In this document: in pieces, positions 37,934 to 59,263 of the stretch | How the letters are laid out: each line of letters begins with the position of its first letter | Numbering within the stretch: the stretch's first letter is position 1 | Origin: Fibrobacter sp. UWEL | Lineage (GTDB): Bacteria > Fibrobacterota > Fibrobacteria > Fibrobacterales > Fibrobacteraceae | Direction: 5' to 3' | Assembly (NCBI RefSeq): GCF_900142535.1 | Contig: NZ_FRBE01000002.1 | Span: 124,001-188,000, forward strand | DNA: 64,000 bases | The notes under the pieces: model-generated | Told to the model about the DNA's origin: nothing | The model's input: the letters and a program-made list of their open reading frames with translations, nothing else | Database searches by the model: none | Made by a program: the position numbers and the translations under genes

Positions 37934-40900
37934 ATGAGTATTTCTACAAATGATTTATGGGTCGGTGTTGACGTCGGTTCTACTACCGTAAAGATTGCCG
38001 TCGTCGATCCGGAAACCTCCAAGCTTTTGCACTATACGTACCAGCGTCACAATGCCATGCAGGCACAGAAGGTGTACGAGGTACTGCGTGAAGCCCACGG
38101 TCTTTTCCCGGGCAAGAACTTCAGAGTAGCATTCTGCGGCAGTGGCGGTCAGCCCTTTGCAGACGCAACCCATTCTTTCTTCGTACAGGAAGTGGTTGCC
38201 AACGCTCTCGCCGTCCGTGCAACTTATCCCGATACAAAGGTCGCTATTGAACTGGGTGGTCAGGACGCCAAGGTGGTGTTCTTCGAAAAGGATCCCACCA
38301 CAGGCAAGCTGATTGCAAGCGACATGCGTATGAACGGTGTCTGTGCCGGTGGTACCGGTGCATTTATCGACCAGGTGGCAGAACTCCTCCGTATCAAGAC
38401 CGAAGCCTTCGAAGGTTTCGCCAAGCGCGGCCAGAAGGTTTATGAAATTTCCGGCCGTTGCGGCGTGTTCGCCAAGACCGACATTCAGCCCATGCTGAAC
38501 AACGGTATCGCCAAGGAAGATATCGCCCTTTCCAGTTTCCACGCCATTGCAAAGCAGACCATCGGTGGTCTTGCCCAGGGTATGGAAATCAAGCCCCCTG
38601 TCATTTTCGAAGGTGGCCCGCTGACCTTTAACCCGACCTTGGTTCGTGCATTCAAGGAACGTCTGGGTATTACCGACGAACAGGCAATCGTGCCTGAACA
38701 TTCCGAAGTGCTGGTTGCCATGGGTGCAGCCCTTTCCGTAGGCTCCATGTTCGCCGGTCAGGAATGCTACTACCGCGAAGAAGGCTCTCTGGACTCCCTG
38801 GTCCACTTCAACGAAACTCGCCAAGCCGAACATAAGGCCAAGGCTGCCGCAGACCTGTTCTTCAAGAACGACCTTGAATACAAGCAGTTCCTGGAAGATC
38901 ACAAGATGGCTGGCAACAACTACCCCCAGCCCGCTTCCGGTTCTGAACTGAATGTCTATCTGGGTATCGATGCCGGTTCTACCACCACCAAGTTCGTTCT
39001 TATGGACGAACAGGACAATATCGTCGACGGTTTCTACGCCTCTAACGATGGTGAACCTCTGGCCGTGCTGAAGCGCGCCATGAACGAGCTCATCGACCGT
39101 TACGAAGAATACGGCTGTAAGTTGAACATCCTGGGTGTGGGTACTACCGGTTACGGTGAACAGCTGTTCGCCAAGGCAGTCCACGCCGACTACCACACTG
39201 TGGAAACCGTGGCTCACGCCAACGCTGCCCAGCGCCTCTGCCCCGACGTATCCTTCATCCTGGATATCGGTGGTCAGGACATGAAGGCCATCTCCGTTAC
39301 CGACGGTGTGGTTACCGGCATTATCCTGAACGAAGCCTGCTCCTCCGGTTGCGGTTCCTTCATCGAAACCTACGCTCGTTCCCTGGGTATCCCCATGGAA
39401 AAGATTGCCCAGATGGCTTTCGATGCCAAGAGCCCTTCTCAATTGGGTTCTCGCTGCACCGTGTTCATGAACAGCTCCATCATTACCGAACAGCGTGATG
39501 GTAAGCAGCCTGAAGACATTATCGCAGGTATCTGCCGCTCTATTATTAATAACGTGTTCACCAAGGTGATTCGTATCCGTAACCTCAACACTCTGGGTAA
39601 GAAGGTTGTGGTCCAGGGCGGTACCTTCAAGAACAACGCAGTGCTCCGCGCCTTTGAACAGTACACCGGCCTCAAGCCCATCCGTCCGGAACGTCCGGGT
39701 GAAATGGGTGCAATCGGTATCGCACTTCTCACCAAGAAGTACATGGAAGAAAAGCGCAAGACCGATCCGGAACTGAAGTCCAGCTTCATCGGTCTGGAAG
39801 CTATGAAGACCTTCAGCTGGCACAACCAGCCGGGTCAGCTCTGCCAGTACTGCACCAACCATTGCTCTCGTACCATCGTGACCTTTAGCGATGGCCAGAG
39901 CTTCGTTACCGGCAACCGTTGCGAACGCGGTGAAGTGACCGCAGATCCCAACGACCCGAAGACCAAGGCTTTGATTGCAGAAATCAACAAGAAGATGCTT
40001 TCCGTGCCTGACATGATCAAGCGTACCAACCAGCTGTTGGTAAAGGACTACGCTCCTGCCAAGCTGGTAGAACCGCAGCTGAAGGCTGATGGCACTCAGA
40101 AGACCATCGGTATTCCTCGCGCTCTTGAATTCTGGGCAAGCCTCCCCTTCTGGAAGGCATTCTTCACCAGCCTCGGCTATACCGTAGTCGTCAGCCGTAG
40201 CTCTGACTACAAGATGTTCGAAGCAGGCCTCCATAGCGTGCCATCCGACACCGTCTGCTTCCCGGCCAAGCTGGTTCACGGCCATGTGCTCTCCCTCATC
40301 GACAAGAAGGTGGACCGCATCTTCTTCCCCATGATGGTAGCTATTCCCAGTGACCACACCAAGTTTGACGCAACGGCAGTCTGCCCCGTGGTCCAGGCCT
40401 ACCCCAATGTCTGTAAGAATACCGACGAACCGGAAAAGAATTACGGCGTCCCCATGGATCAGCCCATCTTCCACTGGTTCAACGCAAAGCTCCGTCGCTC
40501 CCAGACCATCGACTGGTTCAGCACCAACTGGGGCCTGGACAAGAAGCTGATCAACAAGGCTGTGGACGAAGGCGAAAAGGCCCTCAACAACTACCGCACC
40601 ACCTTGCTGGAAGAAGGCCAGAAGATTCTGGACGACGTCCGTGCAAAGAACAGCTTCGCCGTGGTCATCGCAGGTCGCCCCTACCATGTGGACCCGCTGA
40701 TCAACCACAACATTGCAACTCACTTTACCGCCATGGGCATTCCGGTTCTTACTACCGAGTCTCTCCCGGGCGTGTACGATCAGGATGTTCCCAACCACAC
40801 CCGCGTGGAAATCAAGAACACCTTCCACCTCCGTATGCTTGGCGCCACCATGATTGCCGCTAAGGATCCCAACGTGGAACTGGCTCAGATCGTAAGCTTC

Positions 40901-42388
40901 GGCTGCGGTCACGACTCCATCCTGACCGACGAAATGATGCGTATGCTCCATCGCGATTCCAACAAGGAAATGCTGATGCTGAAGCTGGACGAAGGCGACG
41001 CCCGTGGTCCTGTGGGTATCCGTATCAAGAGCTTTATCGAAACCGTTAAGGCCCGCCGTGCAGCCAACCTGCCGGACAAGCCGGAATCCAACGAACCGCT
41101 GTTCACCACTCCCTTCACCAAGGAAGACAAGGACAAGCGTACCATCCTGGTTCCCAACCTGTCCCCCGCATTCAGCGTGCTGGCAGCAGCCTACATGCGC
41201 GCCAAGGGCTACAAGGCATCTCCCCTGCCTGTTGCCGACAAACGCGCCATCGAACTGGGCAAGAAGTTCGTCCATAACGACATCTGCTTCCCCTGCCAGG
41301 TGAACATCGGTGAAAACCTCCTGTGGCTGGAACAGCATCCTGAAGCAAAGCAGGAAGAAGTCTCCATCGGTCTTGCCAAGAACTGCGAAAACTGCCGTGC
41401 CGTGCAGTACGCCGTACTTGCCCGTAAGGCTCTGGACGAAGCAGGATATCCCAACGTTTCCATCATCACTACCGGTTCCGACAACAAGAACATGCATCCG
41501 GGCTTCCAGCTGGGTCTGGACTTCCGCCTCCATATGTTGTGGGGTCTGGTGACCATGGACGCCATCGAAATCATGTACCGCGCACTCCGTCCGTACGAAG
41601 TGAACAAGGGCGACACCCAGAAGGTATACGACGAATGGATGCCCAAGGTCATGAACCGCGCCGCAGTTCTTTCCAAGCTTGAATTGGCAAAGCCCACTGC
41701 AGTGATCAACCTGTTCCGCGAAACTATCGCAGCCTTCAATACGGTTGAAATTACCGAAGACCGTAAGAAGGGGCTCCGCAAGCCTCGCGTCGCTGTGCTT
41801 GGTGAAATTCTCATGAATTACCATCCCAGCGCCAACGGCTACATCGAAGAATACCTGATGAACAACGGCATGGAAGTCTACCTGCCGGGTATGACGGACT
41901 TCTTCCGTGTGGACGAAATCGTCCGTGCCGAAAAGATCAAGCGTGGTTTCTCCGCCAATCCTATCGAAGACCGCATCATCGGTGGTGCAACCGCCAAGGT
42001 TTACACCCACGCTCTGGAAGTGGTCCGTAAGGAAATGGAAGCAAACTTCAAGCTGTACGAACATCATGCAGACTGCTATGAATTGATCAACATGGTTGGT
42101 GACATTATTGACCCCACCTACAACACCGGCGAAGGCTGGCTGATTCCGGGCGAAATTCTGTACAACTCCCAGCATGGCATCAACAGCCATATCATTCTGC
42201 AGCCCTTCGCCTGCTTGGCTAACCACATTTCCGGCCGCGGCCTGACCAAGGCTGTGAAGGAACGTTGCCCCCATATTCAGGTGCTGTCTCTGGACTACGA
42301 TCCGGATACCAGCTTTGCAAACATCGAAAACCGTTTGCAGATGCTAATCATCAACGCCCGCGAATTGGAAAAGGCAAACCAGCAGTAA
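37934..42388 (+). CDS. 2-hydroxyacyl-CoA dehydratase activase - HgdB-like fusion (BadF/BcrA family, two ASKHA domains)
   Basis: 1484 aa. Two BadF/BcrA-type ATPase domains in tandem begin LWVGVDVGSTTVKIAVVD (about 8) and VYLGIDAGSTTTKFVLMD (about 341); their cluster loops read GVCAGGTGAFIDQ and ACSSGCGSFIETYA, with the second pair of Cys expected to bind a [4Fe-4S] cluster. From about 720 a DUF2229 part (IGIPRALEFWASLPFWKAFF) and then an HgdB/dehydratase-like region (to 1480) follow. Proteins with this layout are widespread in anaerobes and probably use ATP to drive low-potential electrons to an unknown substrate. An extended TTTTTCTAAATTT sits 10 nt before ATG. The gene is monocistronic. Confidence 0.85.
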   Translation: MSISTNDLWVGVDVGSTTVKIAVVDPETSKLLHYTYQRHNAMQAQKVYEVLREAHGLFPGKNFRVAFCGSGGQPFADATHSFFVQEVVANALAVRATYPDTKVAIELGGQDAKVVFFEKDPTTGKLIASDMRMNGVCAGGTGAFIDQVAELLRIKTEAFEGFAKRGQKVYEISGRCGVFAKTDIQPMLNNGIAKEDIALSSFHAIAKQTIGGLAQGMEIKPPVIFEGGPLTFNPTLVRAFKERLGITDEQAIVPEHSEVLVAMGAALSVGSMFAGQECYYREEGSLDSLVHFNETRQAEHKAKAAADLFFKNDLEYKQFLEDHKMAGNNYPQPASGSELNVYLGIDAGSTTTKFVLMDEQDNIVDGFYASNDGEPLAVLKRAMNELIDRYEEYGCKLNILGVGTTGYGEQLFAKAVHADYHTVETVAHANAAQRLCPDVSFILDIGGQDMKAISVTDGVVTGIILNEACSSGCGSFIETYARSLGIPMEKIAQMAFDAKSPSQLGSRCTVFMNSSIITEQRDGKQPEDIIAGICRSIINNVFTKVIRIRNLNTLGKKVVVQGGTFKNNAVLRAFEQYTGLKPIRPERPGEMGAIGIALLTKKYMEEKRKTDPELKSSFIGLEAMKTFSWHNQPGQLCQYCTNHCSRTIVTFSDGQSFVTGNRCERGEVTADPNDPKTKALIAEINKKMLSVPDMIKRTNQLLVKDYAPAKLVEPQLKADGTQKTIGIPRALEFWASLPFWKAFFTSLGYTVVVSRSSDYKMFEAGLHSVPSDTVCFPAKLVHGHVLSLIDKKVDRIFFPMMVAIPSDHTKFDATAVCPVVQAYPNVCKNTDEPEKNYGVPMDQPIFHWFNAKLRRSQTIDWFSTNWGLDKKLINKAVDEGEKALNNYRTTLLEEGQKILDDVRAKNSFAVVIAGRPYHVDPLINHNIATHFTAMGIPVLTTESLPGVYDQDVPNHTRVEIKNTFHLRMLGATMIAAKDPNVELAQIVSFGCGHDSILTDEMMRMLHRDSNKEMLMLKLDEGDARGPVGIRIKSFIETVKARRAANLPDKPESNEPLFTTPFTKEDKDKRTILVPNLSPAFSVLAAAYMRAKGYKASPLPVADKRAIELGKKFVHNDICFPCQVNIGENLLWLEQHPEAKQEEVSIGLAKNCENCRAVQYAVLARKALDEAGYPNVSIITTGSDNKNMHPGFQLGLDFRLHMLWGLVTMDAIEIMYRALRPYEVNKGDTQKVYDEWMPKVMNRAAVLSKLELAKPTAVINLFRETIAAFNTVEITEDRKKGLRKPRVAVLGEILMNYHPSANGYIEEYLMNNGMEVYLPGMTDFFRVDEIVRAEKIKRGFSANPIEDRIIGGATAKVYTHALEVVRKEMEANFKLYEHHADCYELINMVGDIIDPTYNTGEGWLIPGEILYNSQHGINSHIILQPFACLANHISGRGLTKAVKERCPHIQVLSLDYDPDTSFANIENRLQMLIINARELEKANQQ

Positions 42389-45885: not shown

Positions 45886-48708
45886 CTATCGAGCGATCAT
45901 CACGCGGTTGCTGAACAGCACCTGCTTACCGCTTTCTACACGCACGTAGTAACTGCCCTTGGCGCGGATCAGTTCCTTCAAGGGAACGCTTACAGAGCCG
46001 TTGTATTCACGAGCCAGCAGCAGCTTACCCTCCATGTCGAACACAGAAACTCGGGCGCCTGCATTCTTCAGAGTCAGCTCCAGGTTGCCGTGGGCATATA
46101 CAGCCTTGGCGCCGGAAACCGCGGGAGTTTTCTTTTCCACAGTCAGGGTGCCGTTGGAAGTAGAGCTAGCCATTTCCCAGTTATCGGGAACACGCACTGC
46201 AATACCGCGACCCGCCGTACTCATGTACACGACGCCGTAGGTATTCATGTCACCCATCACGAATTCGCCATTAGCAAGACCGCCATATTCATGGCCGTCA
46301 TCGTTCACGCGGGTCCATGTGGCACCCTTATCGTCGCTGCCAAACACGCCGGTCACGCCATCAATAGTGGCATACACGTAAATCGCAGGATATCCGCCCT
46401 TGGTCTTGGACGCGCCAAAACCAACGGCTTCACAGTAACCTACGCCGGCCACCGCAGTCCAGGTCTTGCCCCCGTCGGTAGAGTGCTGCAGGCTTCCGCT
46501 AACGCCAGCACCGGTGGAAGGATCCTGCACAGCAATGGGTAACCACAAGTCACCTTCAAAGCCCGGAATGGCACGGAACTTCTTGAAGGCACTTACACCA
46601 GGAGCACTCACAGCGGCAAAGCTTACACCCTTGTCCGTACTCTTGTAGAACTTGCCTTCCGTCTTGTTGAAGGCGTAGAATACATCTGCATTCTCGGGAT
46701 CGCCCACCACGAAGGAGCCATTGTCAATGCCAGTGACTTCATCGTAGGCTGCATTGCTATAGCGATAAATCTTAGTACTACCTTCCATAGGCACAAACAG
46801 AGCGACAGCACCATCGGTAGAAATAGCGGCAGTACCGTTAGCAATCTTTTCATCAAGCTTGCAGTAGGTGCCAACAGTCCAAGTCTTGCCGGAATCGCTG
46901 GAGAACTGCAATGGTTCAATAGGAACGTCACTATACTTGCCCTCGTACTTACGAGCGTTAGCAACCTTTACCAGCTTACCAGACTTGTGGGCATATGCCA
47001 GGCCCTGGGTCGTTCCCAACGGGACTGCCGTACCACTTACATTGGTCATATGGCGGTACTGGGGGAACTTGGTCACATCCTCATGGCGGAAACCGTCATA
47101 GTCACCAATGATGGAAATCATGGGGCCGCCAGGAATGCTCACCACTTCGAAGGGAACCGTTTCTTCCACGCCATGAGCACTAAAATGCCACACCTGGTTC
47201 ATAGTAATCTGGTCTTCTTCCCAGGAGTTTTCCGCCTTCTGGATAGTATAATCGGACAGGTTGTCCGTACGGAAAAGACCATTACCAGAAGTGACAAAAA
47301 CGCGGTCATGGTCAAAAGGATCCATGGCAACGCTACCGGCCCAATGAATGGAACCGTCGTGCATCCAGCCAATGCCATTGGCATCCATCTGCTGGGTAGT
47401 GGGATAAACACCGCCTTCCATCCAGTAATATCGGAAAGAAGCCACCCAAGTTTCGCCACCGTCTGTAGTGTGGAAAATGTTGGAGCCCCAACGGTCACTC
47501 CACACATCCTTATCGCCATCCTTCTTGTACCAGAACTGAGGGCCATTGTAGCCTTCCGTGGTCACCACCATTTCCTGGTCATCGTTAGGATTGATGGTAA
47601 TGCCACCGTAAGGTGCGATATATTCGTACTCGGCCGTGTTAGAGTAGTCCGTCATATCGTACTTGGCCTCCCCTTCCCCATCCAGATAATCTGCAGGAGA
47701 AACATCGGTCCAGGTACCGGTGGTCAAGTCGCACTTCAATACGGAGCCACGACCAAAGCCGTCCCAGATGGGGCCCCAGCCTTCGTCCCAACCCATAGAA
47801 TGAGGGCCAGCACCATCAGCAAAAGTCACCACCATGGATTTTCCATCCTTGGTAATTACCGCACGCTGAGGCATCAGGCGAACAACACCCCCGCCCTTCG
47901 TGGTACGTAGGCTATCAGGAATGGGCAAAGCCTTCCAGGTAGTGCCCCCATCTTCGGACTTAAATACGTTTTCAAAAGTCTTCCCGGCAGTAGTTCCTTC
48001 ACGAAGGAAGCCGGCGTAAATATTCTTGGAACTACCGGGAGCATACTGCACAAAGCTAAAACCGGAACCGTTCCATGTGGTATCAGAGCCGGCAGCCTTC
48101 GTCCAGGCCTCCACATGAGTCCAGCTAGATCCGTTATCCTCGGATTTCCACAGGCCCCTATTCTTGGAACCATAGAACATAATCTTGGAATCATTGGGAT
48201 CGATTGCAAGAGCTTCGCCGTTACCGCGGCCCATGCCATTACCATGGGCTCCGAAACGTTCCACCTTGGCACCCTTGGTACCGTCAGTGTCCAAAGTGTA
48301 AAGCACTTCCCAGGAATTACCATGGTCCTTACTGCGGAGGAACGCGCTTCGGCCGCTATTCCAGTAGGAGGTACCCGTCATCATGTACACCACGCCTTCT
48401 TCCTGAGGGTCAACCGCAATAGCTTCCACGCCAAGGAGACCTCGTTCCGTAATGTCCACCCAGTCCATGAGGGAGACCCAGCGGGAAGTAGATTCATCCC
48501 AGCGATAGGCGCCACCCACATCCGTACGGGCATAAAAAAGTCCCTTTTCCAGAGGAGAGGCAATGACAGCACTTACAAAGCCGCCACCGCCCATACTGAC
48601 TGCACTCCAGCTATATCCAGTAGAGGCAGATTCAGCAGCGCAAGCTAAACCAGCAAAAGCAGAAAGGCCAAAGGCCAATCCAGAAACCAAAAACATCCCT
48701 TTAATCAT
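45886..48708 (-). CDS. Glycoside hydrolase family 74 (xyloglucanase-like), secreted
   Basis: 940 aa with a signal peptide (cleavage after CAA, residue about 25). Two seven-bladed propellers are shown by at least seven Asp-box-like motifs (SKDHGNSWE, SEDNGSSWT, SEDGGTTWK, TTDGGETWV, SSDSGKTWT, STDGGKTWT, SDDKGATWT). YARTDVGGAYRWD (about 58-70) contains the family's first catalytic Asp, and LLGVEAIAVDP and GRGNGEALAIDPND are GH74 blocks. It should cut xyloglucan of plant cell walls. The C-terminal 80 residues (VSVFDMEGKLLL ... GSYYVRVESGKQVLFSNRVMI) look like a sorting/cargo domain. CGAGGA precedes ATG. Confidence 0.9.
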   Translation of the reverse strand: MIKGMFLVSGLAFGLSAFAGLACAAESASTGYSWSAVSMGGGGFVSAVIASPLEKGLFYARTDVGGAYRWDESTSRWVSLMDWVDITERGLLGVEAIAVDPQEEGVVYMMTGTSYWNSGRSAFLRSKDHGNSWEVLYTLDTDGTKGAKVERFGAHGNGMGRGNGEALAIDPNDSKIMFYGSKNRGLWKSEDNGSSWTHVEAWTKAAGSDTTWNGSGFSFVQYAPGSSKNIYAGFLREGTTAGKTFENVFKSEDGGTTWKALPIPDSLRTTKGGGVVRLMPQRAVITKDGKSMVVTFADGAGPHSMGWDEGWGPIWDGFGRGSVLKCDLTTGTWTDVSPADYLDGEGEAKYDMTDYSNTAEYEYIAPYGGITINPNDDQEMVVTTEGYNGPQFWYKKDGDKDVWSDRWGSNIFHTTDGGETWVASFRYYWMEGGVYPTTQQMDANGIGWMHDGSIHWAGSVAMDPFDHDRVFVTSGNGLFRTDNLSDYTIQKAENSWEEDQITMNQVWHFSAHGVEETVPFEVVSIPGGPMISIIGDYDGFRHEDVTKFPQYRHMTNVSGTAVPLGTTQGLAYAHKSGKLVKVANARKYEGKYSDVPIEPLQFSSDSGKTWTVGTYCKLDEKIANGTAAISTDGAVALFVPMEGSTKIYRYSNAAYDEVTGIDNGSFVVGDPENADVFYAFNKTEGKFYKSTDKGVSFAAVSAPGVSAFKKFRAIPGFEGDLWLPIAVQDPSTGAGVSGSLQHSTDGGKTWTAVAGVGYCEAVGFGASKTKGGYPAIYVYATIDGVTGVFGSDDKGATWTRVNDDGHEYGGLANGEFVMGDMNTYGVVYMSTAGRGIAVRVPDNWEMASSTSNGTLTVEKKTPAVSGAKAVYAHGNLELTLKNAGARVSVFDMEGKLLLAREYNGSVSVPLKELIRAKGSYYVRVESGKQVLFSNRVMIAR

Positions 48709-48952: not shown

Positions 48953-51900
48953 TTACTTACGCTTCTTCTTGCCCTTGGGAGCCTTTTCTTCAGCCTTAGG
49001 TTCTTCCTTCTTGGCATCGGCCTTCTTATCAGCCTTCTTGCCACCGCGGAGGTCATTCATCTTGAAGCTGACGTTGACTTCTGCAGTTGCAATGTTGGAG
49101 AATGCGCCGTTAGGATCCTTAGCCTTGTAAGTGAATTCATCCAGACCGGAGAAGCCCTTATTCGGCATATAGGTGAAGGAACCATCCTTTTCGTTCAGGG
49201 TAATCTTACCGTTGCGCGGCTTCTGGACAACTTGAACAGATACGGGCTTTTCGCCATCGGCGTCGGTCACAGCAGACATGAGACCTTCGGAAGCAGGAAC
49301 CTTCAGTTCGTCGCCTTCCTGAGTCATGTAAGTCATGTTGCTTGCAACCGGCAGGTCATTCACCGGCATAACGGTGAAGATTGCGCTCTGGCTAGCCTTA
49401 GCACCTTCCGGGTCGGTTACCGTAAAGGTAATCTTTTCCGGCTTGCCGTTCCAGTTTTCATGAGGCTGTTCCACAGAGACCGTCTTCTTGAACTTGTCGT
49501 ACTTCACAACCAGGAACTTATTGCCAGTGAAGCTCCACTTCAGGTCTTCAAAGCGATGGTCCTTATCACGAGCAATCTGCTGCAGGTTGAAGGTTGCAAT
49601 AACGCCACCCTTATCGTCTTCCTTAATGGTGTAGCCATCTTCACGGAAGGGCTTCATGATCGGAGCTGCATTCACATGCTTGACGACAAACTTGGCAACA
49701 GTCTTATCCATGCCACCAGCAGGATCCTGAGCGGTGAACACCAGGGTTTCTTCGCCAAACCAGTCACCCTTCTTCGGGCGGATATTGGCTTCGCGGTTAC
49801 CGTTGATTTCCACAGCGAGGTTCTTAGCACCGGAGACCTTCCACTTGATTTCAGAAACCTTATGGTCGGGGTCAGATACGTACTGGTCCAGCTTGATGGT
49901 CTTGAAGGGCTTGCCTTCGAAGGTTTCCTGGCCCGGGATTTCCTTAACAACAGGAGGATCGTTCACCGGCTTAACGGTGTACTTCACCTGGATGGAAGCC
50001 TTTTCGCCAGCCGGGTCAAAGACGTTCACAGTCACAACTTCAGAACCGTTCCACAGCTTGTTGGGGATGTCGCAGGTAAGGACGCCCTTATCGCTAATTT
50101 CGAAGTGCAGTTCATGCTTAACGGCAGGTTCACCACCCTTAGCAGCCTTACCCTTCTTACCACCAGCCTTAGCATTCTTGGAAGCCGGAGTTTCGTTGTC
50201 CAGAGTCCAGATCAATTCTTCCAGCTTGTTATCAGGATCGCTGACAACCTTGCTGAAGTCGAAGGGTGCGAAAGTCTTCTTTTCGTCAATAGTGAAGGGC
50301 TGAACCGGCTTCAGAACAGGAGGATCGTTCACCGGAGTCACTTCGAAGGTAGCGGTTGCAGAAGCAGAAGCACCTGCAATGTCCTTAACGGTAAAGGTCA
50401 GGGTTTCCTTGCCGAACCAGTTGGGGTTCGGAGTAAGGATCTGGGCACGATTACCCTTGATGTCAACCTTCAGGGCCTTGTTGCCAGTAACAGTCCAGTG
50501 GAGTTCATTGGGCTTGTTATCCGGGTCTTCAGCAGCCTTGGACAGGTCTACAACCTGGAACTTTTCCTTTTCCTTGATCTTCTGGCCAGCAATATGCTTG
50601 ATGACAGGAGGATCGTTCACCGGAGTCACTTCGAAGACGATCTGGACAGATGCCTTAGCTTCTTCCGGGTCAAATACATCCAGCTTGATCTTTTCGGTAC
50701 CGTTCCAGTACTTGTCCGGAGTGGTCACCACCAGCTGCTTCTTAGCATTGATGGAAGCCTTCAGTGCACGAGGTTCAGAGAGCTGGAACTTCAGCTGTTC
50801 GAACTTGTGGTCAGGATCGGATACATACTGAGTAAGGTCGATGGGTTCGAACTGCTTCTTTTCTTCGATGGACTGGACTGCGATAGGCTTGATCACCGGA
50901 GCATCGTTCACAGATTCCACGAGGAAGTTAACAGTGCGAGAATCCTTAGCACCTTCCGGGTCGGTAACAGTGAAGGTCACGTTACGTTCGCCATTCCAGT
51001 ACTTGTTCGGCAGCTTGACGCGAGCAATGTTCTTGCTGTCAATTTCAACCTGGAATTCATCAACAGGTTCTGCAGCAGGTTCAGCTTCCTTGGCACCCTT
51101 CTTAGCAGCCTTCTTGGCAGGCTTCTTGGCAGGAGCGGCGGCAGCGGAAACCTTGGCAACCTTAACGGTCCAGGTCAGTTCATTATTAGCATGGTCCGGA
51201 TCCTTCACGAACTTGTTCAAGTCGATTTCCTTGAAGGTACCCTTTTCCTTGATCTTCTGGGGAGGAATATCCTTCATCACAGGAGCGTCATTCACAGAAG
51301 TGATTTCGAAGTTCACGATCTGAGAGGTTGCGAGACCTTCCGGGTCCTTCACCATGATGACAATTGCTTCCGGAGCGCACCAGAAGTACGGATCAGGAGC
51401 GCTAACAGTCAGCACGCGGCTCGGAGAAATTTCAGCCTTCAGCTTCTTGTTGCCAGAGACAGACCAGATGAGTTCATTGGGCTTGTTATCCGGGTCCTTG
51501 ACGTATTCGTCAAGCTTAATCTGCTTGAAGGTTTCCTTTTCCTTAATCTTCTGGTCAGGAATCTTCTTTACAAGCACCGGAGCGTCGTTCACGCGGGTCA
51601 CTTCGAAGAGCATCTTCACGTTAGCAGAAGCACCTTCCGGGTCAGTAACGGTGAAGGTGATCATTTCCTTGCCATTCCACTGGTCGTGAGGCACGGAGAC
51701 GATTGCAGTGTTATCCTTACGGAGATCAACCTTCAGCTGCTTGTTGCCAGAAACACTCCACTTCAGCTGAGTAGTCTTGTGATCCGGGTCAGTAGCGAGA
51801 GTGGACAGGTCGATGGTCTTGAAGCGGCCACCTTCAGTAATGGTCTCACCCTTCGGAGCCTTATCGGAAATCTTCGGAGCATCGTTAATGGAACGAACTT

Positions 51901-54900
51901 CAAAGTGTGCAGTCTTGGAAGCCTTAGCGCCTTCCGGGTCGGTTACGTTAAAGGTAATGTCTGCAGCGCCATTCCAGTACTTGTTGGGAATAGCGATTAC
52001 AGCAACACGCTGACCGTTAACAGTTTCAACCTTGACCTTGAGAGTTTCAGTTGCAGGTGCGGCAGTTTCGGCTTCAGCCTTCTTTGCAGGCTTCTTGCCC
52101 TTAGCAGCAGGTTCTGCAGCGCCAACCTTAGCAGGCTTCACATCGAAGCTCCACTTCAGTTCACCCTTCTGGTGATCCGGGTCATTGACCAGGTCATCCA
52201 GCTTGATCTTTGCGAATTCCTTCTTTTCGTCAATGGACTGATCCTTCAGTTCACGAACAAAGGCAGGAGCATCGTTCACAGATTCAACGGTGAAGGTAAC
52301 GGTACGGCTGTCAGTAGCACCTTCCGGGTCAACAACAGAGAACTTAATCTTTTCGGAACCATGCCAGTACTGGTTGGGCTGAGCAATAGAAACATTGTGG
52401 CTTGCATCCATGGCAACCTTAAGTTCCTTGGCGCCTTCAATCTTCCACTTCAGCTTGGCCTTCGGATGGTCGAGGTCAGTAACATAGTCATCCAGGTTGA
52501 AGGACTTGAAGGAGCCCTTTTCCTTGATCTTCTGGTCAGCAATATCCTTCATGACAGGAGGATCGTTGATGGACTTCACGGTAAAGGCGGCGGTGGTCTT
52601 TGCAGAAGCACCTTCCGGGTCAGTAACAGTGAAGGTCAGCTTTTCAGAACCATTCCACAGATTGCTCGGGGTCTTCACGGAAACCTTACCGTCCTTGCCC
52701 ACATTCACCTTCAGGTCCTTAGCACCAGAAACTTCAATCTTCAACTTATCAAATGCATGGTCCGGATCCTTAACGATGGCAGCCAGGTCAAAGTCTGCAA
52801 ACTGCTGCTTTTCTTCGATGGTCTGATCGTTGATCTTACCAATAACAGGAGCGTCGTTCACAGAAGTTACAGTGAACAGAGCGGTGCAAGAAGCCTTGCC
52901 ACCTTCCGGGTCTTCCACCTTGAAGGTGATTTCTTCAGCGCCATTCCAGTACTTGGACGGGATCACAACCTTAGCCATACGCTGGTCGTCCACAGAGACG
53001 GTCAGCTTGGGAGTATAACCCTTAGGAGCACCCTTAGCACCCTTCACATCGAAGGACCAGGTAAGCTGTTCAGACTTGTGGTCCGGATCGTTGACAATAT
53101 CATTCAGGTTGATAATAGCGAATTCACGCTTTTCCTGGATGGTCTGATCCTTGATGGGCTTGGTGAATACCGGCAGGTCGTTCACAGATTCAACAGTGAA
53201 GGTAACGGTACGCTTGTCCATTGCACCTTCCGGGTCAGTAACAGTGAAGGTAACCTTTTCGGAACCGTTCCAGTACTTGTTCGGAGTGTTGATGGTAGCA
53301 ATCTTGTTAGCGTCAATAACGATCTTCAGATCCTTGTTGCCAGAAACAGTCCACTTCAGGTTCTTCTTGTCGTGGTCCAGATCGGAAACGTATTCGTTCA
53401 GGTCGATAGACTTGAATTCACCCTTTTCCTTGATAGTCTGGCTAGCAATATCCTTCATGACGGGAGGATCGTTGATGGACTTCACAGTGAACACAGCATC
53501 GCTCTTTGCAGAAGCGCCTTCCGGGTCAGTAACAGTGAAGGTAACCTTTTCAGAACCGTTCCACATCTTGGACGGAGTCTTGATAGTAGCAACACCATCC
53601 TTGGAGATTTCAATCTTCAAGTCCTTGTTGCCGGAAACAGTCCACTTCAGCTGCTTGAAGTCGTGGTCATCATCATGAGCAAGTTCAGCAAGATTGATAG
53701 AAGCAAATTCCTGCTTTTCTTCAATCATCTGGTCAGGAACCTTCTTGAGGGTCGGAACATCGTTCACGGACTGAACGGTGAAGAGAGCCTTAGAAGAAGC
53801 ACTTGCACCTTCCGGATCGGTAACAGTAAAGGTGATTTCATCAGCACCGTTCCAGAACTTGTTGGGAATATTGATCTTTGCAACCTGCTGAGCATCAATT
53901 TCAACAGTAAGACCAGCGTCCTTACCCTTAACAGTAGACTTCACGTCGACAGAGAAGGTCAGGTCGCTAAGCTTGTTATCCAGGTCGCGAACCATTTCGC
54001 CCAGCTTGATAGCGGTGAACTGGCCCTTTTCCTTGATGGTCTGAGGAGCAATCTGCTTTACGAATTCCGGAACATCGTTCACGGATTCAACAGTGTAAGC
54101 GATAGTACGTTCGTCGGTTGCGCCTTCCGGGTCGGTCACCTTGATGGTGAGAGTTTCGGAGCCGTTCCACTGCGGGCTCGGCGGAGTTACCTTCAGGACA
54201 CGGTTACCGTCAATAGAAACCTTCAGTTCACGCTGACCAGTAACGGACCACTTCAGCTTGTCCTTGGAATGGTCGAGATCTTCGACATACTTGTCCAGTT
54301 CCACAGTCTTGAACTGCTGCTTTTCCTTGATGGTCTGTTCCGGAATATCCTTCATGACAGGAGGATCGTTGATGGACTTCACGGTGAGCTTCATCTGAGT
54401 CTTAGCAACGCCGCCTTCCGGGTCAGTTGCAGTGAAGGTCAGAGTTTCAGAACCGTTCCAGAGTTCGTTCGGAGTCTTGAAGGAAACGTCGCGAGTCTTC
54501 TGGTTGTAGTCAACCTTGATATCCTTGTTACCGGTAATTTCAACCTTCAGCTTGGAGATATCATGGTCAGCATCGGAGAGGAATTCTTCCAGATTGATGG
54601 AATTGAATTCGTTCTTTTCTTCGATGGTCTGGTCAGGAATCTTCTTGAACACAGGAAGATCGTTGATAGATCTTACAGCCAAAGTAACATTCTGCTTGAC
54701 TGCAGCACCTTCCGGGTCAGTACAGGTGAAGGTAACGATTGCGGTACCGTTCCAGTAGACATCCGGAATTTCGATGGAAGCCACATGGTTTTCATCGATG
54801 TTCACATTCAAGGTACCGGATTCAGGTTCCTTGCCCTGGTGCTTCACTTCAGCTTCCCAAGAGAGTTCGCTCTTCTTGTGGTCAGCGTCATCGATGTAAT

Positions 54901-56266
54901 CGTCAAGCTTGATCTTTGCGAAAGTCTTCTTTTCGTCGATAGACTGGCTGGGGATGGTCTTCACGAATACCGGAACGTCATTCACAGAGTTAACGGTGAA
55001 GGAGTTTTCAGATTCTGCGCAAGCACCTTCCGGGTCGCAAACCTTGAACTTGAGGGATTCGCTACCGTTCCACAGCTTGTTCGGAGTCTTGATGGTAGCA
55101 GTCTTGCCAGCGATATTGACCTTCAGGTCCTTATTGCCGGAGACGGTCCACTTAAGTTGTTCGTAAGGATGATCCGGATCCTTAACCAACTGAGACAGGT
55201 CGATGGGCTTGAATTCCTGCTTTTCTTCGATGGTCTGTTCAGGAACTTCCTGGACAAATTCAGGAGGATCGTTGATGGACTTCACGGTAAGAGTGAGCTT
55301 GGAGCTTGCAGAAGCACCAGCAGCGTCAGTGCAGGTAACGGTGAATGTTTCGGAACCGTTCCAATATTCGTTAGGAATCTTGATGTTTGCGGTACCGTAC
55401 TTATCCACATCGATCTTCAGGTCCTTACCGCCAGTGATGGTCCACTTCAGCTTGGAGACATCGTCATCCACGTCAGTCACGAAATCAGTGAGGCTGATGG
55501 ATTCGAATTCGTTCTTTTCTTCGATGGTCTGGTCCGGAAGCTTCTGCATGACAGGAGCGTCATTGATGGGCTTCACAGTAAAGATTGCAGTCTTGGAATC
55601 GCTAGCATATTCACCATCAGTTGCGGTGAACTTAATCTTAGCAGAGCCATACCAGTTGGGGTCAGGAATGACAACGGTTGCAACGCGGTTCTGGTCGATT
55701 TCCACGTTCAGGTCGCCTTCAGCCTGGTCCTTGCCATTGGGAGTAATATCAAATTCCCAAAGCATCTGGTTCTTGGGATGGTCGGGGTCAGTGACGAAGT
55801 CATCCAGACGGATCTTGTTGAACTTCTGACCTTCATCGATGGTCTGGTCAGGAATCTGAGCCACCACCGGAGGATTGTTCACGGATTCAACATTGAAGTT
55901 TGCTGTTTCGGAACCGACAGCACCCTTGGTATCGGTGGCAGCGAAGGTGATGTCTTCGTTACCATTCCAGTACTGATCTGGGGTTTCGATGGTCGCAATG
56001 CGATCCTTGGAAATAGTGACCTTCAACTTCTTGTTGCCACTAACGGACCACTTCAGCTGTTCCGGCTTATCCATATCGTCGGACACATACTGGTCCAACT
56101 TGATGGGGGCAAACTTGCCACCTTCGTCAATAGATTCACCAGGAATTCCACTTACAGACGGGGCTTCATTTGCAGCTGCCTCGCCAGCTTCCTGTGCCAC
56201 ACCTAGTGAAGCAAGGAGTCCAGCAGAAGCTAGGAGCGCCGCCACAGACCAATTCTTTCGTCTCAT
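48953..56266 (-). CDS. Giant surface protein with 22 cadherin-like repeats in three-unit super-repeats
   Basis: 2437 aa from ATG 56266, which has GGGAG before it; the extension to 56398 is AT-rich and lacks a site. A signal peptide (RRKNWSVAALLASAGLLASL) ends near residue 25. Then 22 units of 85-120 residues follow, each opening NDxPVxxxIPDQTIxEKxxF and carrying LKWxVSGNKxLKV, YWNGSE and FTVTDPEGA. Every third unit (2, 5, 8, 11, 14, 17, 20) has a longer, often Lys/Ala-rich loop. A 23rd domain of another, tandem-95-like type and a Lys-rich tail (KKADKKADAKKEEPKAEEK) end the protein. Likely an elongated surface or adhesion protein; no catalytic domain is seen. It is a single gene, closed by the hairpin 48885-48920. 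Confidence 0.85.
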   Translation of the reverse strand: MRRKNWSVAALLASAGLLASLGVAQEAGEAAANEAPSVSGIPGESIDEGGKFAPIKLDQYVSDDMDKPEQLKWSVSGNKKLKVTISKDRIATIETPDQYWNGNEDITFAATDTKGAVGSETANFNVESVNNPPVVAQIPDQTIDEGQKFNKIRLDDFVTDPDHPKNQMLWEFDITPNGKDQAEGDLNVEIDQNRVATVVIPDPNWYGSAKIKFTATDGEYASDSKTAIFTVKPINDAPVMQKLPDQTIEEKNEFESISLTDFVTDVDDDVSKLKWTITGGKDLKIDVDKYGTANIKIPNEYWNGSETFTVTCTDAAGASASSKLTLTVKSINDPPEFVQEVPEQTIEEKQEFKPIDLSQLVKDPDHPYEQLKWTVSGNKDLKVNIAGKTATIKTPNKLWNGSESLKFKVCDPEGACAESENSFTVNSVNDVPVFVKTIPSQSIDEKKTFAKIKLDDYIDDADHKKSELSWEAEVKHQGKEPESGTLNVNIDENHVASIEIPDVYWNGTAIVTFTCTDPEGAAVKQNVTLAVRSINDLPVFKKIPDQTIEEKNEFNSINLEEFLSDADHDISKLKVEITGNKDIKVDYNQKTRDVSFKTPNELWNGSETLTFTATDPEGGVAKTQMKLTVKSINDPPVMKDIPEQTIKEKQQFKTVELDKYVEDLDHSKDKLKWSVTGQRELKVSIDGNRVLKVTPPSPQWNGSETLTIKVTDPEGATDERTIAYTVESVNDVPEFVKQIAPQTIKEKGQFTAIKLGEMVRDLDNKLSDLTFSVDVKSTVKGKDAGLTVEIDAQQVAKINIPNKFWNGADEITFTVTDPEGASASSKALFTVQSVNDVPTLKKVPDQMIEEKQEFASINLAELAHDDDHDFKQLKWTVSGNKDLKIEISKDGVATIKTPSKMWNGSEKVTFTVTDPEGASAKSDAVFTVKSINDPPVMKDIASQTIKEKGEFKSIDLNEYVSDLDHDKKNLKWTVSGNKDLKIVIDANKIATINTPNKYWNGSEKVTFTVTDPEGAMDKRTVTFTVESVNDLPVFTKPIKDQTIQEKREFAIINLNDIVNDPDHKSEQLTWSFDVKGAKGAPKGYTPKLTVSVDDQRMAKVVIPSKYWNGAEEITFKVEDPEGGKASCTALFTVTSVNDAPVIGKINDQTIEEKQQFADFDLAAIVKDPDHAFDKLKIEVSGAKDLKVNVGKDGKVSVKTPSNLWNGSEKLTFTVTDPEGASAKTTAAFTVKSINDPPVMKDIADQKIKEKGSFKSFNLDDYVTDLDHPKAKLKWKIEGAKELKVAMDASHNVSIAQPNQYWHGSEKIKFSVVDPEGATDSRTVTFTVESVNDAPAFVRELKDQSIDEKKEFAKIKLDDLVNDPDHQKGELKWSFDVKPAKVGAAEPAAKGKKPAKKAEAETAAPATETLKVKVETVNGQRVAVIAIPNKYWNGAADITFNVTDPEGAKASKTAHFEVRSINDAPKISDKAPKGETITEGGRFKTIDLSTLATDPDHKTTQLKWSVSGNKQLKVDLRKDNTAIVSVPHDQWNGKEMITFTVTDPEGASANVKMLFEVTRVNDAPVLVKKIPDQKIKEKETFKQIKLDEYVKDPDNKPNELIWSVSGNKKLKAEISPSRVLTVSAPDPYFWCAPEAIVIMVKDPEGLATSQIVNFEITSVNDAPVMKDIPPQKIKEKGTFKEIDLNKFVKDPDHANNELTWTVKVAKVSAAAAPAKKPAKKAAKKGAKEAEPAAEPVDEFQVEIDSKNIARVKLPNKYWNGERNVTFTVTDPEGAKDSRTVNFLVESVNDAPVIKPIAVQSIEEKKQFEPIDLTQYVSDPDHKFEQLKFQLSEPRALKASINAKKQLVVTTPDKYWNGTEKIKLDVFDPEEAKASVQIVFEVTPVNDPPVIKHIAGQKIKEKEKFQVVDLSKAAEDPDNKPNELHWTVTGNKALKVDIKGNRAQILTPNPNWFGKETLTFTVKDIAGASASATATFEVTPVNDPPVLKPVQPFTIDEKKTFAPFDFSKVVSDPDNKLEELIWTLDNETPASKNAKAGGKKGKAAKGGEPAVKHELHFEISDKGVLTCDIPNKLWNGSEVVTVNVFDPAGEKASIQVKYTVKPVNDPPVVKEIPGQETFEGKPFKTIKLDQYVSDPDHKVSEIKWKVSGAKNLAVEINGNREANIRPKKGDWFGEETLVFTAQDPAGGMDKTVAKFVVKHVNAAPIMKPFREDGYTIKEDDKGGVIATFNLQQIARDKDHRFEDLKWSFTGNKFLVVKYDKFKKTVSVEQPHENWNGKPEKITFTVTDPEGAKASQSAIFTVMPVNDLPVASNMTYMTQEGDELKVPASEGLMSAVTDADGEKPVSVQVVQKPRNGKITLNEKDGSFTYMPNKGFSGLDEFTYKAKDPNGAFSNIATAEVNVSFKMNDLRGGKKADKKADAKKEEPKAEEKAPKGKKKRK

Positions 56267-56674
56267 TTTTGATCTCCCATAATTTCCATCCACTATACCA
56301 TTCTCTTCTTTTTGTTCCACACAAAAACTCAAAAAACACGCAAGTGGGGTTGCGCAGTTAATCGGCTCAAATATAAGATTTATTGTGTTTTTTTTCATAT
56401 TTTGGGCAAAAAATCTTGATTTTTTTTAACAAACTCGTTTGACATTTTTTGTAATTTTTCGTAACTCATTGAGTATCAACAAGTTACGAATTCGTTCCAA
56501 ATGTTCTCAAAAAAACTTTTTCCAACGACTTTTGTAAACTTTTTGTAAAATTCATGATTTTTTCGCCCGCGGGCTCGTTTGAGCACTGTAAAATCCAAGA
56601 CAATTTTCACAAAGAAAGCTATTTTGTGGATGAACGGAAATGAATCCGTGTTTAAAAAACACATAGGTACAACA
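56267..56674. other. 408-nt intergenic region between divergent genes
   Basis: AT-rich. It contains TTGACA at 56439-56444 and an inverted repeat TTCGTAACT (56458-56466) / AGTTACGAA (56482-56490) with a 15-nt gap. Both sides are promoter regions (giant protein to the left, small protein to the right). No gene, RNA or repeat family of the window is recognised in it. Confidence 0.6.
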
Positions 56675-57085
56675 ATGAAATTCGTATTCCTCTGCGACGC
56701 CAACTACCTCAAGGGCGACATGGTCAACTTCGTGAACAACTTCCCCACCAATCACGAACTGGTCACCATGACTTCCGATGAACTGCTCCAGTCCAAGTCT
56801 ATTTTCGACGGCACCTTCGCAATTCTCGCTGAACGCGCTACCTGGCAGAAGAATTTCAGCCTGTTCCGTTACTTCGGTCTGCTTCCCCTGCTGGAAGTGC
56901 TCCCCCTGGGCGTCGTAAGCCGTTCCCGTCGTAGCGAACCCCTCAAGGGCCGCACCCAGAACCGCAACCAGGAAATCTATTTCAACCCCTCCGCATCCGC
57001 TGAAGAACTCTACCTCCAGGTGGACAAGTTCGTTGCAGCTCCTCCTGCAGGCTTCACCTACCCTCGCGGCACTGCTAAGGCATAA
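56675..57085 (+). CDS. Small protein of unknown function, upstream of M23 peptidase
   Basis: 136 aa from ATG 56675 (an in-frame TTG at 56579 is not used). No signal peptide or membrane segment is present. The chain opens MKFVFLCDANYLKGDMVNFV and then an alpha/beta-like part, with a basic loop SRSRRSEPLKGRTQNRNQ (about 88-105). I do not recognise it. It ends 9 nt before the next gene on the same strand, so it is probably co-transcribed with the M23 protein. Codon use is like that of the highly expressed genes of this window. Confidence 0.6.
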   Translation: MKFVFLCDANYLKGDMVNFVNNFPTNHELVTMTSDELLQSKSIFDGTFAILAERATWQKNFSLFRYFGLLPLLEVLPLGVVSRSRRSEPLKGRTQNRNQEIYFNPSASAEELYLQVDKFVAAPPAGFTYPRGTAKA

Positions 57086-57094
57086 TCTTTCTGA

Positions 57095-58618
57095 ATGCGC
57101 TATAAGGTTCTAGACTACTTGTATAAGCAGGGTGGTCTAACCCTTTTTGCCTTTACCGGCAAATTGGATTTACCCCTAGAAGCCTTGCAAAACACAGCGC
57201 TGGCATTAAACGCCGGCGCTCGTTTTGTTGTCATTGACTTTACTGGAAAAACAGAATCCTCCGGCGGAATCTACATCCATGATTTGCTGGAAAGACTCAT
57301 TACAAAGCAGGAGCTGGATAGCCTCGGCGATCAGTCCTGCATTATTTCAGGAACAAGGCTTTTTCCTTCCAACGACGAGCAGTTTAGAAACCTCTATCAC
57401 AATCTCCATCTAATTCAGGAACGAGTCCCGCAAATTGTTGGAATCGTCTCCATGGAGATGTCCCGAGAGGAAGCCGCTTACATCCCCTTGATTACAAGAC
57501 TTCTTGTGATTGCAGGAGAAGATCAGCAATTCGCATGTGAACAGATTGAAGACTTGAAGGGTTTACAACAAACTAACATTCTCTGGCTGTTCGACCAGAA
57601 GCCCCACAAGAAACGCTTTCCTAAGGCAACTGCGACAATCAACGCAAGTCAATCTTTCACGAAGGAATGCAGAGCATTATGCGAAAAGATGAATTGGGCC
57701 AAAGACGCCAATACTTTCGCAAAGACCATTGAAAGCCTTCACAAGGTTCAGATTCTCTCAAGGAACCCTCTAGACGGCATTCCAAAATTGTTCCGGAAGT
57801 TCTTCCCCATCTTCCTGGCAATCGCGGTCCTGGTTCCGTTCTTTTTCGTTTCCAAATTGGAACCCAATGTTTCCAATACCCGCAATAGAATTCACGAACG
57901 CGACGTAATCACCACAGCGCCTTTCTTCGAATACACCTTCGACGGAAAGGACAACCTGAATCGAATTGCACGCTATGGAATTGGACGCTTCAACGCTATT
58001 GTCGCCGACGAAAAGATGGTGAAGAAATATGCGGATATCACTCTGGACGAAAACGGATATTCCGCAAACAATTGGACCAAGGAAAACAACCACATCATTC
58101 CCCCAGCAGGAACGGTCATCAAGTTCTCCCGTCCGGAAATATTTGAACAAACTTCCACAGACTCCACCGGATCTGCATGGAAATACTGGACTTCCATTTT
58201 CTCGGATAGCATCGCCTACCTTACGGAATTCTATCACGAGAATCAGACCCAGACCGATCGAAAGCATCAAGCGATTGACGTGGCAGGCAGGCAGGGCGCA
58301 AGAATCCTAGCCCCCTTCTCCGCAAAGGCATGGACCAGCAAGGATGAACGAGGCGGCATCATTATCGGACTTGTTCATGAAAAACAAGTAATCGTCTTTA
58401 TGCATTGCGACAAGCTGCTTTATTTGGACGGCCAGGAAGTCATGGCAGGAGACCCCATTGCCACCGTAGGAACTTCCGGACACACCACCGGTCCTCACGC
58501 CCATATCGTTACAGGCGTCGTTGACAAAAACGGGACAAAACGCCTCGGAAATATTAAGTACAAGGTAATTGACCCCATCACTTGGTATTACCGATTCAAG
58601 CCCAAATCATTGAAGTAA
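57095..58618 (+). CDS. Membrane-bound M23 (LytM) peptidase with a cytosolic STAS-like N-terminal part
   Basis: 507 aa. Residues 1-110 look like a STAS/anti-anti-sigma-type fold (GGLTLFAFTGKLDLPLEALQ, FVVIDFTGKTESSGGIYI), followed by a helical part to about 225. One membrane helix (about 232-252) leads to a periplasmic region with a LysM-like turn (IARYGIGRFNAIV, DENGYSANNW) and a C-terminal M23 domain. HQAIDVAGRQGARI gives the His and Asp ligands and TSGHTTGPHAHIVTG the catalytic HxH; all are present, so it should cut peptidoglycan cross-links. The N-terminal part suggests control from the cytoplasm (inference). It starts 9 nt after the 136-aa gene. Confidence 0.8.
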   Translation: MRYKVLDYLYKQGGLTLFAFTGKLDLPLEALQNTALALNAGARFVVIDFTGKTESSGGIYIHDLLERLITKQELDSLGDQSCIISGTRLFPSNDEQFRNLYHNLHLIQERVPQIVGIVSMEMSREEAAYIPLITRLLVIAGEDQQFACEQIEDLKGLQQTNILWLFDQKPHKKRFPKATATINASQSFTKECRALCEKMNWAKDANTFAKTIESLHKVQILSRNPLDGIPKLFRKFFPIFLAIAVLVPFFFVSKLEPNVSNTRNRIHERDVITTAPFFEYTFDGKDNLNRIARYGIGRFNAIVADEKMVKKYADITLDENGYSANNWTKENNHIIPPAGTVIKFSRPEIFEQTSTDSTGSAWKYWTSIFSDSIAYLTEFYHENQTQTDRKHQAIDVAGRQGARILAPFSAKAWTSKDERGGIIIGLVHEKQVIVFMHCDKLLYLDGQEVMAGDPIATVGTSGHTTGPHAHIVTGVVDKNGTKRLGNIKYKVIDPITWYYRFKPKSLK

Positions 58619-58682
58619 GTTTGTTCAAAAACTGGTTCAAAGCCACACTTTCCCTGTTGACAAAATTACAACACGTTCCAGA

Positions 58683-58698
58683 CGTGACATTCGTCACA
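58683..58698. promoter_or_regulatory. CRP/FNR-type dyad
   Basis: CGTGACATTCGTCACA (GTGA-N6-TCAC), 14 of 16 bases as at 28415-28430. It is about 130 nt upstream of the lipoprotein gene. Confidence 0.5.
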
Positions 58699-58825
58699 AA
58701 AGGGCTTCGACTTGCACAAAATATAAGCGAATTGTTACATTTTTACTCTCGCCAAGTTATCCGTAATTAAGTAACTTTGTTCACGGAATTAGGGATTTGG
58801 GTAACTTCGAAAAAAAGGAAAAAGA

Positions 58826-59263
58826 ATGAAGTTCAGTGTTTTGGTGATCTCTGCAGTTGCCGCTACCCTCCTCGCCGGTTGCTCCGGTATCAAGACTCCT
58901 AAAGCCCAGTTGGCATCTCACGACATGGATCACAATATTCCTGCAATCGACGACCTGATTGTCACCATGAAGCAGGACTACATCAACAAGTGCTATATGC
59001 CTGTTGCCAAGCGCCGTCCTCCCGAAAACCAGTGCCAGTCCGAACTGTTCCAGATGTTGGAACGCAACTATCGTCTGGAATACCAGCAGGTTCATGTGGA
59101 CCGCGCAGCCAACGAACTGTTCTTCAAGGACGTAGCTCGCGAAATTACCATCCTTTCCAAGAAGGATCCGGACGTTCGTAACGCCATCCGTAACGGAGGC
59201 TTCCGCAGTAACGACGAAATGCTCGCTTACTATAAGGACGCCTATAAATTCGAGACTAAATAA
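58826..59263 (+). CDS. Small lipoprotein of unknown function
   Basis: 145 aa. The lipobox is TLLAGC (Cys about 19), followed by a short linker and a mostly helical domain with two Cys about 20 residues apart (NKCYMP and ENQCQSEL). No family is recognised. AAAGGA precedes ATG. It is preceded by 207 nt that contain a CRP/FNR-like dyad and followed by hairpins at 59266-59315 and 59363-59392. Expected on the periplasmic side of a membrane. Confidence 0.75.
   Translation: MKFSVLVISAVAATLLAGCSGIKTPKAQLASHDMDHNIPAIDDLIVTMKQDYINKCYMPVAKRRPPENQCQSELFQMLERNYRLEYQQVHVDRAANELFFKDVAREITILSKKDPDVRNAIRNGGFRSNDEMLAYYKDAYKFETK

Follow-up and report, generated by a model that had tools for sequence, protein, structure and literature searches.

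β-Sandwich arrays of bacteria are usually taken to be plain spacers. Among the described systems, the giant repeat protein encoded in the 64,000-nucleotide stretch of Fibrobacter sp. UWEL DNA analysed here (the window) is closest to the tandem-95 proteins (NF012211; Big_9, Cadherin_5). It scored 651 bits with NCBIfam NF012211 against a cut-off of 90, in 22 stretches, and also has Pfam matches to Big_9 and Cadherin_5. The giant resembles tandem-95 proteins in unit length, in its 22-stretch profile match, in the linker motif and in being an exported giant array, but differs in the three-unit order of its domains, with enlarged loops (arms) at one site; other profile-matching arrays are uniform. 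Units are 96-97 aa long in the arrays of other phyla (L114-L116) to which the unit profile matches; most other large class-level control arrays scored too low with that profile for comparison.

The extenders of RTX adhesins (MhLap, AhLap, MpIBP) likewise form tandem β-sandwich rods with linker Ca2+, which is presumed for the giant, and AhLap (6xi1) was among the fold matches of its modelled units. Unlike RTX adhesins, the giant has a Sec signal and arms on every third unit; a Pfam search matched no RTX repeats in it, and its termini are Sec-type (N) and Lys-rich (C). The repetition of a domain order as a block, domains of about 4 nm and conserved positions recall the A-band super-repeats of titin (PMC7427331), and the super-repeat order is kept between species in 48 orthologues, as in titin-like rulers. 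Titin is nevertheless an unrelated protein with 7- and 11-domain blocks and known binding to a periodic filament; the likeness is one of analogy, not descent. Within the same bacterial lineage, F. succinogenes S85 FSU_2932 and FSU_2931 share the cadherin-type annotation and were recovered from an envelope fraction (PMC4619616), but are of 318 and 22 kDa with pI 4.69, against 238-272 kDa and pI 5.3-5.6 for the measured orthologues of the giant, whose S85 counterpart could not be linked to a locus tag via the literature. A limited search of open papers turned up no bacterial cadherin-like array in which a three-domain super-repeat is strict and conserved and bears graded arms; literature on bacterial Ig-like super-repeats and tandem-95 proteins yielded nothing relevant, nor did the passages found in a survey of isopeptide bonds treat this domain family. 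The domain family and fold are already known; the ordered, graded super-repeat is a new variation on them.

The features of the gene and its surroundings are given in Table 1. When N-termini were aligned, the start at 56266 (MRRKNWSV...) matched homologue starts (MKRKNWSV...) better than a longer ATG at 56398. Unit boundaries were set by cutting at the linker motif, giving 22 units and a 23rd. A reading made earlier from the DNA sequence, without database searches (the sequence-only reading), had described a 2437-aa open frame with 22 cadherin-like units, of which units 2, 5, 8, 11, 14, 17 and 20 (here B units) are enlarged; unit lengths and the 48 orthologues agree. That reading also had the chain end in a different domain and a Lys-rich tail. 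The tail is there, but what was taken for a different domain is a further unit, unit 23, which is of canonical tandem-95/Cadherin_5 type and belongs, though diverged, to the superfamily of the other units. A second tandem-95 protein of the same genome (949 aa, G000:C23:17770-19326, L056) is kin mainly to unit 23, and proteins of 880-1040 aa resembling it occur across the genus. Antisense to the giant gene lies a 2324-aa stop-free open frame (49232-56206, + strand), and a second antisense frame, of 1439 aa, lies opposite 37934-42388; both are probably by-products of codon usage.

Table 1. Positions within the window of the giant gene, its parts and its divergent neighbours
Feature	Position	Strand	Basis
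Gene of 2437-aa repeat protein	48953..56266	-	Conserved start in open frame; orthologues throughout Fibrobacterales
Predicted Sec signal peptide, aa 1-25, without lipobox	56192..56266	-	Sequence and N-terminus alignment
22 cadherin-like (tandem-95) units, aa 33-2303	49358..56170	-	Profile matches; unit splitting; predicted fold of units 7-12
Units 2-14, core sequence also in three-unit phase	51884..55876	-	Lag identity and trees
Arm of unit 2, short acidic hairpin	55709..55753	-	Unit splitting and orthologue profile
Arm of unit 5, short conserved hairpin	54809..54853	-	Unit splitting and orthologue profile
Arm of unit 8, short hairpin, near neutral	53909..53950	-	Unit splitting, AlphaFold model, orthologue profile
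Arm of unit 11, short basic hairpin	53003..53053	-	Unit splitting, AlphaFold model, orthologue profile
Arm of unit 14, disordered, Lys/Ala/Pro-rich	52040..52147	-	Predicted disorder and orthologue profile
Arm of unit 17, disordered, Lys/Ala/Pro-rich	51053..51166	-	Predicted disorder and orthologue profile
Arm of unit 20, Lys/Ala/Gly-rich	50108..50203	-	Sequence and orthologue profile
Unit 23, canonical tandem-95/Cadherin_5/Big_9 unit	49052..49357	-	Best stretch of Pfam and NCBIfam matches
Lys-rich C-terminal tail, aa 2406-2437	48956..49051	-	Unit splitting and terminus alignment
Divergent neighbours: 138-aa protein, inner-membrane M23 peptidase, small lipoprotein-like protein	56669..59263	+	Conserved context

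Splitting of the giant at the linker motif gave unit lengths of 96-99 aa except for unit 22 (104 aa) and the B units, which at 105, 106, 105, 108, 130, 128 and 122 aa are the seven longest of the 22; if the seven longest fell at random, this placement modulo three would have P ~6e-5. The B-unit arms all sit at one site, the β3-β4 hairpin, and no other unit carries one, the extra residues of unit 22 being elsewhere in the domain. Loop lengths do recur at every third unit when the arm segment (profile columns 40-52) is measured in the 48 full-length, 22-unit orthologues. In the 15 non-B units this segment is normally 13 residues (means of 12.9-13.2 per unit, extremes 12 and 19), compared with 19-57 residues in units 2, 5, 8, 14, 17 and 20 and 16-25 in unit 11, and insertions of at least four residues sit at profile column 46 in seven of the seven B units.

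In a first search of 61 related genomes, the giant was present in every genome of the same genus that was at least 90% complete. Across 48 orthologues, which represent at least nine genera in two families, the pattern is kept. The count is 22 units in most copies, and the pattern recurs in further genera of the family and in two genomes from a different family (about 45-48% identity). A sub-clade (G001, G004, G006, G014, G019 and others) has 19 units and the last unit. Compared unit by unit, its units 1-8 match units 1-8 and its units 11-19 match units 14-22, so that one three-unit block among units 9-13 is missing while arms still fall on every third unit. The gene was absent from all nine sampled genomes of genus g20 (G080, G088, G096, G099, G106, G107, G109, G111, G119), and the role of the giant is thus dispensable there. 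Two labels in the collection are likely binning or naming errors: L112, titled Bacteroidales, holds a Fibrobacter-type fragment, and L109, titled F. succinogenes RUG14205, falls by sequence in another family (44% identity).

The core sequence of the units carries a period as well. In units 1-14, identity without the arms was 55% at lag 3 and 43-45% at lags 1, 2, 4 and 5. Within Fibrobacter the core of units 15-22 shows no phase, so the period there rests mainly on the arms; a weak phase was seen in the other family (p 0.02-0.03). An 88-unit tree from four species grouped all 21 B units of the three Fibrobacteraceae, with SH-aLRT support of 81, which is not strong. When the multi-species tree was repeated minus 20 columns around the arm, period 3 clustered (2 of 200 unit shuffles were as low) and periods 2, 4 and 5 did not; the B units as one clade were not rejected, and the constrained tree had the higher likelihood. 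Unit phylogeny accordingly has three-fold phasing, within the limit set by units 15-22. Because of the lag-3 identity, the period-3 arm-free tree and the one-block difference in the sub-clade, growth by duplication of three-unit blocks, as the sequence-only reading had proposed, is well supported as the probable origin of the array, clearest in units 2-14 and decayed in the C-terminal third. Identities within the single protein had pointed to an A-type core in unit 17 that gained an arm (62% identity to unit 10); this was dropped, since the multi-species tree puts unit 17 with the B units and relatives differ. Local gene conversion may have occurred.

Along the chain the arms of the orthologues are graded, from acidic in unit 2 through near neutral to basic in units 8 and 11 to Lys/Ala/Pro-rich in units 14, 17 and 20; the Lys/Ala-rich loops first noticed in this protein from unit 14 on are seen in most orthologues. 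The acidic hairpins of units 2 and 5 show sequence conservation, that of unit 5 as VKHQGKEPESGT, while in units 14, 17 and 20 the arm sequence drifts and composition and length order persist across two families. Such drift would be expected if the pattern were a neutral relic of block duplication, with the arms as tolerated linkers, their phase kept only by in-phase recombination and their Lys/Ala/Pro content a product of low-complexity drift. That the B units can form one clade, and that the single known block loss was in phase, as recombination alone would yield, also agree with a relic. We consider it unlikely, however, given the conserved arms of units 2 and 5, the persistence just described and the 48 orthologues, in which every B unit has retained its arm and none of the other units has acquired one like it.

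The AlphaFold model of units 7-12 is a well-ordered array (mean pLDDT 90.4, pTM 0.42). Its top-ranking hits in the PDB were protocadherins and cadherins, with E-values down to 4.5e-24 but low TM-scores of 0.2-0.4 over the whole array; the predicted fold of these units is cadherin-like. In this model the third strand has eight residues in B units and five in others, so that the arm lengthens the β3-β4 hairpin. Disorder is predicted for the arms of units 14 and 17 (pLDDT about 30), the rod that bears them being well predicted. Near-invariant in each unit are E15, D30-x-D32, D79 and N97-D1, laid out as are cadherin-type linker ligands; by likeness to cadherins and RTX adhesins (PMC7493085) they are candidate Ca2+ ligands. 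Nearly all orthologues show a net charge per unit that climbs along the chain, from near -7 up to roughly zero or a positive value, and in nearly all of them, including those of another family, the N-terminal third is acidic and the arms and C-terminal third are basic. Oppositely charged ends, together with fold relatives that are homophilic cadherins, would suit self-assembly, in which the acidic N-terminal region of one chain would bind the basic arms of another, building up a sheet or staggered bundles; in one genus (L130), though, the gradient is weak, and we regard self-assembly as very unlikely.

The mechanism that we tentatively favor, while holding it to be somewhat short of probable, is a rod in the envelope, stiffened by Ca2+, that would use cationic arms at regular intervals to hold on to an anionic polymer there; its Ca2+ binding, azimuth, anchoring and location are what we infer. 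The exported rod of 22 cadherin-like domains would be about 100 nm long if extended (roughly 4-4.5 nm per domain) and stiffened by Ca2+ in the domain linkers. Successive domains would turn about the rod axis such that arms three domains apart face the same way, a turn of about 120 degrees per domain placing them on one face; the RTX extender MhLap has a rotation pitch of about i+3 (PMC7493085). Units 14, 17 and 20, through their cationic arms, might then join with the Lys-rich tail to anchor the rod electrostatically and multivalently to an anionic polymer (peptidoglycan, LPS or capsule), with the acidic N-terminal two-thirds and its short conserved hairpins reaching outward to present repeated contact sites. 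The weak charge gradient of L130 and the lack of the gene in genus g20 speak against this mechanism. From charge and predicted disorder, binding of the arms to acidic polymers, membranes or partner chains, as suggested in the sequence-only reading, is plausible, and the conservation of the order across at least nine genera suggests that arm spacing matters. It is also conceivable, though we think it quite unlikely, that the protein is a bacterial molecular ruler, in which arms on one face, about 13 nm apart, would match a repeating envelope feature and charge polarity would set the direction of the rod.

The giant has a predicted N-terminal Sec signal and no lipobox, T9SS tail or membrane anchor, which would fit a periplasmic or non-covalently held surface protein. 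About 45 other frames in this genome carry the T9SS sorting domain TIGR04183, among them the adjacent 45886-48708 (- strand), a BNR-repeat enzyme, probably GH74-like, with a T9SS-type C-terminal tail, which varies between genomes. The divergent trio on the other side is conserved over the genus and several sister genera, while nearby glycoside hydrolases vary and the other family lacks the syntenic neighbors. The M23 peptidase (within 56669-58618, + strand) has a cytoplasmic-looking N-terminal domain; its 138-aa partner, which belongs to no assigned family, occurs across the class. Co-inheritance of the giant with the 138-aa/M23 pair was considered and is weakened by genus g20, which keeps the pair, before a probable D-Ala-D-Ala ligase gene, but lacks the giant; a link between pair and giant is therefore suggestive only, and no convincing genetic partner was found.

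This context bears on whether the rod might instead be a cell-surface adhesin that extends and binds cellulose, or plant fiber with acidic hemicellulose or pectin, through its hairpins or basic arms. Fibrobacter lives attached to fiber, other cadherin-annotated proteins occur in the envelope fraction of F. succinogenes S85, one of them only on cellulose (PMC4619616), and several glycoside hydrolase genes lie nearby within the window. Yet a Pfam search found no carbohydrate-binding module in the giant, the T9SS tail common elsewhere in this genome is missing from it, and it is the envelope genes beside it, not the hydrolases, that are conserved. We rate a fiber adhesin as rather unlikely, though next in line after the envelope anchor.

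The lineage is central to fiber digestion in herbivores, and its attachment machinery is incompletely understood. Genus g20, apparently without the giant, offers a natural control for the role of the protein. Strict domain order and graded arms have persisted through at least nine genera in two families, so that the notion of a rod coded by position is open to direct test.
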